Positions 21,794 to 46,121 of a stretch of 64,000 nucleotides of DNA are shown one piece after another; position 1 is the first letter of the stretch, and each line of letters opens with the position of its first letter. Both the position numbers and the translations under genes were made by a program. This DNA is from Quercus robur (lineage: Eukaryota; Streptophyta; Magnoliopsida; Fagales; Fagaceae): positions 17,397,656 through 17,461,655 of the forward strand of contig NC_065538.1 of the NCBI RefSeq assembly GCF_932294415.1. Direction: 5' to 3'. The notes beneath the pieces are model-generated. The model was not told the DNA's origin. It worked only from the letters and a program-made list of their open reading frames with translations, and made no database searches.

Positions 21794-22195
21794 AGAATGT
21801 CATAGAATGTTTTAGTGAGGATGATCTCCCAGATGATGATGATTATAGTGACCATAAATAGAGGGAAAACAACAGTCATTTTCAGTAAGAATGAGAGAGA
21901 AAGAAAGTAGAAAGTATATATATATATATTATCTCAAATTAATTAGGTATTGATTTTAAGAATGTCATAGAATGTTTTAGTGAGGATGATCTCCCAGATG
22001 ATGATGATTATAGTGACCATAAATAGAGGGAAAACAACAGTCATTTTCAGTAAGAATGAGAGAGAAAGAAAGTAGAAAGTATATATATATATATATATAT
22101 TATCTCAAATTAATTAGGTTAGATGATGTGGTTATCAATAAATTTTAAGAATGACATAGATTATAGTGATTTTCTAATGTTTTAGTGAGGATGAT
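21794..22195 (+). repeat. Tandem repeat, about 160-bp unit, interrupted third copy
   Basis: Unit 1 (about 21794-21950) and unit 2 (about 21958-22120) share GAATGTCATAGAATGTTTTA, then GATGATCTCCCAGATGATGA, GTGACCATAAATAGAGGG and a (TA)n tract. Unit 3 starts near 22130 and is split after GAGGATGAT at 22195. It resumes at 27273 with ATGATCTCCCAAATGATGAG. Confidence 0.85.
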
Positions 22196-24400
22196 TGATG
22201 TGCATGAAACATATATAATAAAATACTCTCATATTTGCATTTTTTTTGCCATACTTTTAAGCTATTTTGCGACTAATTATATATTATCTTTGTTTAATAG
22301 GTGATAAGGGTTTACATGCTAAGTGGGGCTCAGTCAGTTGCTAACCCAACCTGAAGGACCTGGAGGGCATGAAGTAAAGAAAATAAAAGCATGACGTGCT
22401 AAGCAAGTAGAAAGAAAATTAAAGAAAAGAGGTCCAGGCTTATTGATTCAAAGCCAACATGAAAAGAAGGACATGGAGATACGTGAAGGAGCAAAGAAAA
22501 GAACTAATAGATAGGGAGCTTATTCACGTGGAAGAGATACATGGGCTTGAGGTTTAAATGAACATTTGTTAATTGTTGGTGGGCCTCTCTATTTCTTATT
22601 GAAACACAAACACTCTTGGGCTAGTCTTCGGTTTCAGTTGGGCACAACTTAAAGCATAACGTGTGGCTTACCATCCTAGTTTCACTTGTATTAGGAATTT
22701 TCATAGAGTCAGGCGGCTTCTCTTTGAAGTGCGCGTCTTTGTGTGATATAAATATGAGCAAACAGAAAAGTGAGGCTAATGCTGGGGCCCGCATGTGGCT
22801 TTTCTCCATGACAGCATTGTGATTATTTTCTATTTTATTTTATTTGTTTAGTTTAATGTTTAGTATTTTATTCTTGTATTTTATTTCAATTATCACGATT
22901 AGCTAAATTTATAATTAGGGTTGAAGATGAAACCTTGTTAAGGATTATTAGTATTATTTATGTGATTTGATTTTTTCCACAATATTTGTTTTTTAATGAT
23001 TTAAATTGTTTTTGCTTCATATCAATTGACTAAGATGAGATTCTAGATATAAGTTTAATCATGTTTTCCTCATGATTTATGATTTGTCTTAATTAATTGA
23101 ATGCTTGGTTTATTATTTCTTGATTTTAAAATTGGATATCTCTTGTGATTTATTTAACTACAGATACAATTGATGATTTGATTTTATACCAAGGAACCAA
23201 AGAAGAGCATGCTTTAGATATTTAAATAGAAGTTTTAATGATAATATTCTCCATGGTAGCAAGATTGATTTCTAGATTATCATGTAATGGTTGGGAAAAA
23301 TTAATGATTTTGAATATATGATGATAAGAATTAACAAGGTGGATTCCAAAACCTTAACTCTTTTGGCCTGTTTGGAAGTTTAGAGAGGGAGGAGAGTAGA
23401 GGGGAGTAGAGGGGAGGAGAGTAGTAGGGAGGAGAGTAGAGGGGAATGATTCCTCTCTACCTTGTTTGGATGTTTTTAAAATTAGTAAGGGGGAAGGGAG
23501 TAATTAACCCTTCCCCTTGTTTGGATGTTTTAAAAATTAGGATGGAGAGGAGAGGAAATGATTAAAATAGACAAATTTACCCCTATTTAAAAATGGACTT
23601 GCAACACTGGTCTATGATTAATTTGTTAGAATTTTTTTTTTTTGATAATTTTTTTTATGTGAATTAAATAATCAACATTAGTCTATGATTAAATATTTTT
23701 TCTACTTTTTTATTATACTAAAAAAAACCATCTTTAATTGATAATAATTAAAATAAGAAAAAAATGTTTGGTTTGTTTGTTTACTGAAAAAATCAACAAA
23801 ATATTGAAATTTTGAGTGTTTCTTTCATTTATTATTATTATTTTTAATATATATTTTTTTTCTTAGTACGTGAATTTAATTGACAACGCACTTTCTTTTT
23901 AAGTCTGAACATCTCTCTGACTCTGTGTTGTAACTTGTAACTTTCTTCGAAGTTTGAACCCCATGGAGCTAGTGCAGGAGCTCATGGTCACAGCCTCTCT
24001 CACTCTCATCCTCTCTCTCATCATAGCTAAACTCAATTTCAACAAAGCCACATGGGAGGAGCATAGTATGACCTACAGGCTGCAGTAGCATTGGTAGTAC
24101 AACCAATTTTTGAATCAAAGGCCTCATATGACATTGCATCATGCCAGACAACTAAGAAGTGAAAAGCATAAAAATGAATGTAAGCAAACAAAGTTTTCAA
24201 GCCACATAAAAAAGGACAGTGTTACAATGAGCTATGACCGTATCTGTAATTGCCAATAGACTTGTTTTAGAAAGAAAAACTAAAAATAAACACAAGTTGG
24301 TGCCAAAGAAAAATTAATCCCAAGAGTTTACAGTTCAATGATCAATTGAAAAGGTTTTTAGAAGATGAAATTGTCTTGGAACATTACTTGCCTAACTGAC

Positions 24401-25936
24401 ATAATTGTCAAGTTTCCTCTTTGCCAGAACTTTGAGCTCGGATTCAGAAATCCAACTATTATGAATATGAGACTTTCCAACCCACTTAACTAAAAACTCA
24501 TAAGATACCTTCTCTCCATCAACACAAGCAGATTCAGCCAAGGTGGCTTCCTGAATTTTGTTTTCTGCAGAGCTTCTCATTCCCATTTCTAAATCCACTT
24601 CTTTATCGTCTTTGGTTTCATTAGAGACATCTGTTTCATAAATTTTTGGAACTTCATCAATATCTTGATTTCTCAAACTGACATCAGTATTCTCCTCCGT
24701 AACCATTCTTTCATTTGCCTTTTCAAAATTCTCTGTAGTTACAGCAGATTCATCTTGATCTTTACCATTCATAGCACAAGAATCTGAATCCTTGATATCT
24801 TTTCTTAAAAGATCCATGGCATTTCCTTTTTTACATTCTTTGGTTGCAGATCTTTTGTATGCATGTATTTTATCCACTTTCTTTTTTTTTTTTTTGGTTG
24901 AAAGGGAAATTCATTAACAAACTAAACAGCAAACACAGGGGCAAGACAGAGCCTACTTACAGACAGCCCAACGGCATCAGCCTCCAACAAGCTAGTTAAA
25001 TCCACAGGTGGACTAGAAAACACAACAAACTCACTGTCAAGCAGTAATCCTAATCTAGCCAAAAAATCAGCACATATTTTATCCACTCTCATTTCATTCT
25101 TCATGCTTTCTTCCCTGTCAAAACTCTTATCAATATTCTGACAACCCTCAATATGATTTTCAGCAGCTCCTACATCTAAATCAGTATCGCAAGCAGAATT
25201 TTCTTCTGAGAGTCTGTTTTGATTTTCTGAAATTAGTAAGTCCTTAGAACATAGGTCATCAGCTACATTCACAGATAAGTGACGTGAAAGGCCCGTGTAA
25301 TTGCCTTGAACTCGACACCCCAGAACCTGATCAACCTGCATGTAGACATATAAGAAATACAAAAATATGTCATGATATTCACAATTGACCCGCATAGCCT
25401 ATATTTAAGACGCTAATACAAGAAATCTAACAAACTTTGTGCTGAAGAGATTCATTTACCTGCAGAGTCTCAGTGGCAACACTTTCTCCACAGATTACTG
25501 TTTCATCAACATGACCTTTTTTGTTTAACTCATGTGATAGGTTTGTTGCTTCCTGAGGAAGCTTCTGCATCAAAATAAATATATTTACTAATCATATTCA
25601 AAGACAAAAACAACAGAAAAATTGCAGCAACTACCATTTTTATTCTCCATGCTTTCAAGTGTCCAGGGGTTTCTAATCTTTTCTGGAAAAGATAGATAAT
25701 AAAGCTGTGGAAACCTTATGGTTGATAGACTTACACTTCTGCCATGATTTACTAGTTACAGGGCTGGCAGTATTTGCTTTGGATTTACGTTTCTTAGAAG
25801 AACTAAGAATAGATTTTCCCTTATCAATCCTATGCTTCTTTTGACTGTCTTCATTATTCGATTTCGGTTTTTTTTTTTCTATGTTCCTCAGTGGCAGCAC
25901 TAATTGCAAGAACCAGAGTTCTTCTCGGGGAGACAT
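24401..25936 (-). pseudogene. CHR4: Captured fragment of a CHD3-type chromatin remodeller (CHR4-like)
   Basis: CHR4/PKR1 is a Mi-2/CHD3-class nuclear remodelling ATPase with PHD finger, two chromodomains, SNF2 helicase and C-terminal region. Here only the region around the chromodomains remains. A Lys/Ser-rich segment lies at about 25936-25673 (SSKKRKSKANTASPVTSKS). The exon 25564-25460 encodes LSHELNKKGHVDETVICGES. The exon 25335-24401 starts VDQVLGCRVQGN (first chromodomain motif), has an acidic linker, and ends YEFLVKWVGKSHIHNSWISE plus AKRKLDNY (second chromodomain). Acceptor and donor sites are preserved. The ATPase and the PHD finger are absent. The last exon is broken by a LINE tail at 24879-25074; without it the frame is continuous. 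Not functional as a remodeller. Confidence 0.8.
24879..25074 (-). mobile_element. 5'-truncated LINE tail with 13-bp target duplication
   Basis: Inserted in the CHR4-like exon. It is flanked by TATTTTATCCACT at 24866-24878 and 25075-25087. It has a poly(A) tail on the minus strand (24881-24895). It encodes CADFLARLG...SEFVVFSSPP, the RNase H-end motif of plant L1 ORF2. The duplication repeats the host codons for VDKI on both sides. Confidence 0.88.
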
Positions 25937-26163
25937 TTTTAAGGACCAGACATCATTATTTTCTCAGCAACCAAACAACAGGGAAAAATGAAAGCAAACA
26001 CGATTTCAAGCTAAAAGCTAACAGTTTTCTCAAAACCCAAATGCCAAAAACATAAATCAGATCCATTTTCCAGTTCAAACTTGAACATCAAAAAGCTGAG
26101 AGAGTACAATTTTGGTTGGGGCTTAGGAGGAGCCAAAACAGAAACCCATTCACAAAAAAAAAA

Positions 26164-26165
<2 letters not shown>

Positions 26166-26197
<32 letters not shown>
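26166..26197. repeat. Long poly(A) tract
   Basis: About 30 A, followed by ACAAAACAAAAAC repeats, inside an intron of the captured fragment. The open frames on both strands here are homopolymer artefacts. Confidence 0.85.
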
Positions 26198-26198
<1 letters not shown>

Positions 26199-26559
26199 AA
26201 AACAAAAACAAAAACAAAACAAGAAATTACCCAAATCAGAAACCCATGCACAAAAAACAAGAAATTACCCAATAAAAATAAACAAGAAACACAGATTCAT
26301 AGCCAAAATATACAAATTTATGCAAGTTCACAATCTAGACTCACTCAAGCACTTTATCAAACACGTTATGAGCAATACTTTGAAATTTTAAAATTTAAGA
26401 AAAAAAGCCTTCAGATCAGAAACTCACCCACAAATAACATGTTATTACCGCATAAAATCACAATTAATAAGAAATTACTCAATAAAATCACAATTTTAAG
26501 AACATACTTATTTGATTCAACTTAAGAAACCCATGAAACAGAAATTCAAACAGAGTTTA

Positions 26560-26760
26560 CCTTTGTGAGAGAATGCTAGGCGTGTGGGAGAAGAGTGAAA
26601 GATAGTCCAAGAGTGAAGAAGTCGTGAGAGAAAGAGAGAGCCAGCGTAAGTTGAGAGAGCTTGAGAGAAAATCGTGGGTTACAGAGCTGAGAGAACTGAG
26701 AGAGCTTGAGAGAAATTTTTGGCTGAGAGAGCTGAGAGAGATTGTGGTTACAGTGTTTTT
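26560..26760 (-). other. GAGAGAG-rich segment ending in a splice donor
   Basis: On the minus strand a CTCTCT-rich, 5' UTR-like stretch ends at CACAAAG|GTAAAC near 26561. It could be the captured first, noncoding exon of the CHR4-like gene, joined to the next exon by an intron of about 0.6 kb. This would mean that the transposon took the transcription start region too. Inference only. Confidence 0.35.
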
Positions 26761-27339
26761 TTTTTAAAGTTAAAATGCCTTGTAATTTTTTTAATATAAT
26801 AAGGGTAAATTAGGTAATTTACATATTTAATAATTTATGTGCTCTACTCTCCCTCCAAATCTCTCCAATTTGGAGGAATTAAAAATGAGGGGTTGGAGGT
26901 AGTTGAAACCCCTCCAAATCCCTCCCCCTCCTTCCTTAAAAAACTCCCAAGCAAGGTAATTGAACTACTCTCCTTCCCTCTACTCTACTCTCCCTCCTTT
27001 TTTTAACATCCAAACAGGCCATTTATCTAGATTGTTTACATCTCTTTTATGCTTTATATTATATCTTTGCTTAGTTTAATTATTTGTTTAGTTTATTTAA
27101 TTTTTTTAAAAAAAAAAAACCAATTTTTATTAAACTAGATTATAATTAATTTGGTTAGGATTTGATTAATTTTTCTACGTTCATTCAAGTTCCTGTGGGT
27201 TCGACCTTGTTCTTGTTAAACTATACTTCGGTACGGTTTATACCGTTGCGAGTACTTTAAAATTTCATAACAATGATCTCCCAAATGATGAGGATTATAG
27301 TGACCATAAATAGAGAAAAAACAGCAATCATTTTCAATA

Positions 27340-32647: not shown

Positions 32648-32915
32648 TGGGCCGTTTGGATATAGTTTATTTTGTTGAAACTAAAAACTGAAAATACTGT
32701 AGCAAAATAATTTTTAAATGTGTGAATAGTATCGTGTGATTCATTTTTAATGAAAAAGTGACTGCAAAGTGAAATTTACAGGTCTGTAAACAGTGCATGA
32801 ATGCACTGTTTACTGTAGAAAAATCATCAAATGCGGGCTAAAAAAAAAAGAGAAAAACGCTAAAAATAAAAATACAGACACACAGACACTGAAACTAAAT
32901 GGGTACTAAGAGCCT
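32648..32915. mobile_element. MITE (GGGCCGTTTGGAT ... ACTGTAGCAAAATAATTTTT)
   Basis: Starts GGGCCGTTTGGATATAG, has GAAAATACTGTAGCAAAAT and AACAGTGCATGAATGCACTG, and ends AACTAAATGGGTACTAAGAGC. Noncoding. A near copy lies at 33497-33785. Confidence 0.65.
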
Positions 32916-45662: not shown

Positions 45663-45865
45663 AGCCTCCATTTGGATACCAATAAAAAATGAAAATTATT
45701 TTACTATTCAGCTTATTTTTGTTACTATTCATGGACCTTATTGCACTTTTTGGTACTATTCATAGCCCTACTGTATTATTTCAGCTAACTTTTACCTTTA
45801 TCTATAGTATTTTCAGTAATAAGTTTTCAATTTTATCAAAATAAGCTGTATCCAAACAGGCCCTT
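45663..45865. mobile_element. MITE (CCTCCATTTGGATAC / GTATCCAAACAGGCCC)
   Basis: Inverted ends with TACTATTCA repeats and ATAGTATTTTCAGTAATAAG inside. Noncoding. Its right part is included in the tandem duplication that follows. Confidence 0.65.
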
Positions 45866-46121
45866 AATTTTTTTTTAAAAAAATTATAATATTTAATTAA
45901 AACCATATAATAGACAAATTTCAAATTAAGGGGATAAAGTCGGGAGAGGGAGTATAACTTTTATCTTTATCTACAGTACTTTTAGTAATAAGTTTTTAAT
46001 TTTATCAAAATAAGCGATATCCAAACAAATCTTAATTTTTTTTTTAAATTATAATATTTAATTAAAACCATATAATAGACAAATTTCAAATTAAGGGGAC
46101 AAAGTCGGGAGAGGGAGTATA
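45786..46121 (+). repeat. Tandem duplication, two units of about 168 bp
   Basis: Unit 1 (45786-45954) and unit 2 (45955-46121) share TAACTTTTAYCTTTATCTA, TTTATCAAAATAAGC, AAACCATATAATAGACAAAT and GTCGGGAGAGGGAGTATA with few differences. Confidence 0.9.

Follow-up and report, generated by a model that had tools for sequence, protein, structure and literature searches.

The element and its parts

The DNA analysed here, which we call the window, is a 64,000-nucleotide stretch of the Quercus robur genome (C5:17397656-17461655), and the genome searched with it comprises 785.7 Mb in 42 contigs (contigs carry C numbers and fetched stretches L numbers). At positions 23364-27021 of the window lies a transposon of 3,658 bp that is almost certainly a non-autonomous, Pack-type PIF/Harbinger element in which two gaps were presumably patched with host-gene DNA and which was mobilised as a unit. 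An initial annotation, made from the letters of the window, had described a Pack-type transposon carrying part of a CHD3 chromatin remodeller gene. That description stands as far as it went, but it left the superfamily unnamed and missed both a captured piece of an acyl-CoA-binding-domain gene and a scrap resembling a long interspersed nuclear element (LINE) nested in the CHD cargo. The features of the element, in order, are:

23361-23363, target-site duplication TTT, left copy
23364-23425, plus strand, left terminal inverted repeat, perfect over its first 13 bp and 81% identical to the right end over 62 bp
23364-23881, transposon-derived left part, covered by relatives L010, L042, L043 and L044
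23882-24032, plus strand, captured piece 1, from an acyl-CoA-binding-domain gene, comprising its 5' region and initial codons (MELVQELMVTASLTL...); 87% identical to the donor at C41:6019782-6019939
24033-24398, minus strand, transposon-derived stretch, which in L042 follows the stop codon of a transposon frame on the minus strand
24399-24401, filler ACA at the left CHD junction, matching neither source
24402-25941, minus strand, captured piece 2, a genomic stretch from a gene for a CHD3/4-type remodeller; the donor spans 1426 bp at C40:14351899-14353324
24402-25335, minus strand, CHD exon piece with chromodomain 1, cut at ...KLDNY within the donor exon and split by the LINE-like scrap
24866-25087, minus strand, LINE-like 3' scrap with A-tract, about 24879-25074 lying between 13-bp duplications
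25336-25459, minus strand, whole CHD intron (GTAAA...TGCAG)
25460-25564, minus strand, whole CHD exon of 35 codons
25565-25941, minus strand, remnant of the preceding CHD intron and a 5'-truncated exon
25942-25956, minus strand, transposon remnant: last codons (MMSGP and stop) of the minus-strand frame whose downstream flank ends at 24398
25957-27021, minus strand, transposon-derived right part, on the upstream side of the transposon's minus-strand genes; covered by L010, L045 and L046
26964-27021, minus strand, right terminal inverted repeat
27022-27024, target-site duplication TTT, right copy

The inverted ends proposed in the initial annotation are confirmed, with the limits now at 23364 and 27021 and TTT on both sides. 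The sequence TGGCCTGTTTGGA occurs exactly at 23364-23376 (plus strand) and 27009-27021 (minus strand), forming perfect 13-bp inverted ends, and the repeats extend imperfectly to 62 bp (81% identity, E 1.4e-9). Taken alone, the 13-bp pair is within chance for the window, which has 28 inverted pairs of 13-mers at distances of 1-10 kb (low-complexity words excluded) where 20 shuffles have 10-29. The extended ends reach a local score of 66, against a maximum of 40 over 1000 shuffles, and this score was attained by none of 1984 random window pairs (best 57).

Transposase-bearing relatives place the element in the PIF/Harbinger superfamily

The exact end motif is found at 592 places genome-wide (292 and 300 on the two strands), as against 4 (2 and 2) for a reversed control. 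Pair analysis covered the first 100 of these places, where neighbours less than 15 kb apart were arranged '+-' in 20 instances and '--' in one, with none '-+' or '++'. Identical TTA or TAA flanks border 18 of the 20 '+-' pairs, all of which were fetched; the exceptions are L017 and L018. Six further stretches (L041-L046) were fetched around matches to the CHD cargo search. Four of them (L041, L042, L043 and L045) have both ends at no more than one mismatch, each with matching TAA or TTA duplications; at this tolerance L044 holds no end motif and L046 only one.

Three long relatives, L010, L042 and L043 (7.1-7.7 kb), each contain a DDE_Tnp_4 domain (E 6.3e-15 to 7.9e-15) and a Myb_DNA-bind_3 (Myb/SANT) domain (E 2.6e-16 to 1.5e-19), and by these predicted domains they are PIF/Harbinger members. 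Because its long relatives carry these transposase and Myb/SANT domains, the window element can be placed as a non-autonomous member of the superfamily. The interior that is coding in L010 and L042 is missing from it, and no transposase match was found among the 11 of its 38 open frames (at least 45 aa) that were scanned in Pfam. Within the right part, L042 and L043 provide cover only from about 26192-26197 onward. A candidate captured 5' leader and intron at 25957-26780 (including 26561-26760) was rejected, as the relatives show transposon sequence there.

The element ends in T-GGCCT-GTT, in which GTT is in register with the terminus G(N)5GTT and the first base is T rather than G; to our knowledge, G(N)5GTT does not define the PIF/Harbinger superfamily. 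The transposase-bearing L010 and L043 have the same end, and L042 has one mismatch on one side. In a Medicago study the G(N)5GTT terminus was a condition for mining elements (PMC2213677; here and below, citations refer to the available portions of each paper). A search of viral contigs with the extended end motif returned no relatives, and the motif searched as text in the literature returned unrelated papers only.

L045 (C5:4571116-4574735, 3.6 kb) has both ends in common with the window element and has native transposon sequence at the position of the right junction. Its interior includes about 1.4 kb that has no counterpart in the transposase-bearing relatives used.

Two captured pieces and their donors

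We defined foreign DNA as what remained, at a minimum of 60 bp, after subtracting all sequence found in L010, L042, L043 and L044. The remainder consists of exactly two segments, 23882-24032 and 24399-25954. The match to the first in C41 lies where a 268-aa frame begins, and this frame has an acyl-CoA-binding domain (E 1.1e-11). The 3.2 kb read around the match lacks the end motif at up to two mismatches.

The parental locus of the CHD piece, which the initial annotation had proposed to look for, lies on C40, where the donor (read as two stretches with one unread base between them) matches in three blocks at 96-97%. The cargo itself gives a Chromo domain on the minus strand (E 2.2e-6). Two chromodomain stretches are present in the donor gene, and further downstream a 628-aa open frame carries an SNF2 ATPase (E 2.6e-79). 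We assign the donor to the CHD3/4 class because its ATPase is closest, among solved structures, to CHD4 (522 bits, as against 455 for Chd1); the captured chromodomain 1 exon alone matches Chd1 (5e-8) better than CHD4 (0.012). The comparison supports a CHD3-class remodeller as the predicted source, as the initial annotation had it; presumably the gene is the one named CHR4 or PKR1. The same ends around the parent gene would have weakened the case for capture, and in the 18 kb read around the C40 donor the end motif is absent at up to one mismatch, with one match at two mismatches. Viral and prokaryote contigs searched with the chromodomain exon gave no relatives, as expected for a plant-like gene.

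The CHD piece begins within one exon and stops within another, just past chromodomain 1. The final donor exon continues into chromodomain 2, which the element does not hold, so that the fragment does not end inside the second chromodomain as first thought. A candidate splice donor at about 24411 was rejected, since the donor exon continues there and the sequence beyond is transposon. A deletion of 94-96 bp near 25691-25703 took away the 3' end of the first captured exon together with its splice donor, and damaged the intron. The minus-strand CHD segments of the initial annotation are thus real, but with that donor deleted their splice sites are only partly kept. The introns in the cargo imply a DNA-level mechanism of capture, in agreement with what had been proposed. 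The LINE-like scrap (about 200 bp) is bracketed by 13-bp duplications, TATTTTATCCACT, at 24866-24878 and 25075-25087 and is absent from the C40 donor; we take it to be LINE-derived, and it has no Pfam match.

The same chimera at other sites

The CHD cargo is present in at least three copies (window, L009 and L041), 40 of 259 candidates having been scored. One copy, L009 (C2:42467500-42471090), is full-length and shows 94.6% identity to the window element (blastn, gaps counted); the other, L041 on C39, has an internal deletion of about 645 bp. Each of these two bears its own TTA or TAA duplication. For the acyl-CoA-binding piece, where all 33 candidates were scored, only the window element, L009, L041 and the C41 donor were recovered. 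Both CHD junctions, the deletion of about 95 bp and the LINE-like scrap, of which L041 retains part, are common to all three copies; the donor has neither deletion nor scrap.

Computed without the scrap, the window cargo diverges by 2.4% (31/1315) from L009, by 3.9% (28/721) from L041 and by 3.4% (45/1314) from the donor. At the 721 sites present in all four, 17 differences set the three copies apart from the donor, while 13 are private to the window copy, 7 to L009 and 12 to L041; two sites group otherwise and one falls into no simple class. A single capture before spread would be the simplest reading of these patterns.

We considered whether the locus could instead be a decayed copy of a host CHD gene with transposon ends inserted on either side by chance, a view favoured by the 13-bp end pair, which is by itself not unusual in the window. 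Such a history would have to account for the same chimera at two other sites with separate TTA or TAA duplications, and for cargo that ends within exons at junctions common to three copies. Junctions in common at separate sites refute this view, and we give it almost no credence.

Capture junctions

At the left CHD junction, transposon sequence (...CTAACTG) is followed by the filler ACA and then by the donor. At the right junction, the donor end TTTTTA overlaps the transposon's TTTA, after which come 15 bp of transposon. In L042 this 15-bp remnant is located 9-13 bp beyond the left junction, and next to the remnant about 5 kb has been lost from the window element. Since the remnant corresponds to the last codons of the transposon frame, the CHD piece was inserted into a single element immediately after a stop codon, and 9-13 bp were lost. 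Read by eye, three of the four donor junctions show short overlaps (ATT, TC and TTTA), and the internal deletion shows ATT. Among animal Pack-TIR elements (TIR, terminal inverted repeat), 190 (67.6%) were reported to have a breakpoint, or both, with microhomology, which ranged over 1-36 bp with a median of 2 bp (PMC8277862). By analogy with those elements, the junctions of the window element are consistent with gap-filling repair by template switching.

We infer the following course of events. A full-length element with transposase and Myb/SANT genes would have suffered breaks. One gap would have been patched with about 150 bp copied from the acyl-CoA-binding-domain gene and another with 1.4 kb of the CHD3/4-type remodeller gene, just past the transposon stop codon. 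The element would also have lost about 5 kb of its own interior; a LINE-like scrap would have inserted in the cargo and about 95 bp of cargo would have been deleted. The chimera would then have moved as a single unit, presumably in trans by the transposase of its relatives, to at least three sites.

Several points weigh against this account. The overlaps of 2-4 bp were read by eye and may be due to chance, and either the 5-kb loss or the CHD capture may have come first. The window copy duplicated TTT, whereas the family mostly has TTA or TAA. Transposase activity and transposition are predicted from sequence.

A published alternative, argued for Pack-CACTA and other Pack-TYPE elements and extended to PIF elements (PMC8903248), is that two neighbouring elements on either side of donor DNA are mobilised together. 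A fusion of this kind fits less well here because no clear internal ends remain: the internal matches to the end motif at up to three mismatches in 13 are at 23458, in the same direction, and at 24958, in reverse. Both have three mismatches, and the reverse one falls inside the LINE-like scrap. The 15-bp transposon scrap to the right of the cargo carries on from the left flank, which is what insertion into a single element should produce, and the donors are on different contigs, C40 and C41. We consider a two-element origin improbable and favour gap filling within one element.

Different cargo elsewhere in the family

The initial annotation had held that multiple copies with the same ends and different cargo would establish a Pack family. 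Such copies exist: beside the three elements with CHD cargo, L019 carries a fragment of pyruvate kinase (PF00224, E 2.3e-7), and a second copy of this element is on C37. The L019 donor, C38:10766262-10766625, matches over 364 bp (97%) and belongs to an open frame of 555 aa. The 3.4 kb read at C38 hold no element pair, since the two end-like matches found in them (2 mismatches) face away from each other. With L009 and L010 set aside, each of the 12 fetched pairs that exceed 1 kb (L011-L022) holds stretches absent from the transposase-bearing members used, and the six pairs of 445-495 bp hold none foreign to those members. Among L011-L022 a donor is established for L019 only, and since interior pieces are common to some of these members, the stretches need not all stem from independent captures.

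L017 (C2:61706011) and L018 (C2:61736208) lie about 30 kb apart with cargo 90% alike, and 10 bases beside one element match, in reverse complement, 10 bases beside the other. This suggests an inverted duplication or rearrangement, which would explain their mismatched duplications. We take their cargo to resemble an ATG18-like protein; L017 has no Pfam match.

Relation to known elements

The kind of element is already known, and the window element is a well-documented, unusually complete addition to Pack-PIF. PIF elements have been annotated in rice and maize and Pack-PIF elements described in maize (PMC8903248). The latter are alike in their PIF/Harbinger ends, 3-bp duplication, captured exon DNA and amplified copies; compared with what the available text of that study gives, the present case adds two donors on two contigs and capture junctions that can be read. 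Capture of host genes by PIF elements, introns included, is also published for grapevine (PMC2528002), where the Pifvine-3 transduplications hold host exons and introns, some common to several copies. In the available part of that paper Pifvine-3 has an extra 5' region and the family is studied for ORF1 and transposase, whereas the coding region is gone from the window element. Gene pieces between inverted ends and breakpoint microhomology are features of animal Pack-TIRs too, but 160 (56.9%) of those lie within 15 kb of the parent (PMC8277862), and the donors of the window element are on other contigs. Literature keyword searches for a captured CHD3 gene in Pack elements gave nothing on the subject by title, and for PIF Harbinger with captured introns no match.

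In the oak genome one Pack-PIF lineage is thus resolved together with its transposase-bearing relatives, two donors, a nested insertion and three copies. Cases of this sort allow gap filling and two-element fusion to be judged from the junctions.

Possible regulatory role of the CHD cargo

The cargo is oriented like the transposon genes and lies downstream of the transposon's upstream region, and it is 96.6% identical to its parent over 1,314 aligned sites. These two features raise the possibility of a functional chimera in which the upstream region would drive the CHD fragment as a regulatory transcript, or as a source of small RNAs tuning the parent. Three defects interrupt the CHD reading in the window copy, namely the LINE-like scrap, an additional base in a run and the loss of the splice donor, and we regard such a role as unlikely. 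The narrower proposal, that sense transcripts of the amplified CHD3 chimera, started from the transposon's upstream region, might feed small RNAs onto the parent remodeller gene, is to our minds very doubtful. If it were true, a family of transposons would be adjusting a regulator of the chromatin by which transposons are silenced; a small-RNA test is worthwhile because the cargo comes from a chromatin remodeller.

Chromosomal context

The element lies within a probable solo long terminal repeat (LTR) at 22196-27272 (TGATG...AACA), which is flanked by the 5-bp duplication ATGAT (total 22191-27277). This assignment is drawn from the window only, in which two neighbouring repeats, near 21817 and 21982, keep the empty LTR target. 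Other short repeats, at 32648-32700 and 45786-46121, begin with GGGCCGTTTGGATATAG or GGGCCTGTTTGGATACAG and perhaps represent a different family of miniature inverted-repeat transposable elements. Finally, positions 4600-61000 form a tandem gene array with repeated blocks about 18.5 and 25-33 kb apart, the genes of which we take to be receptor-like kinases.

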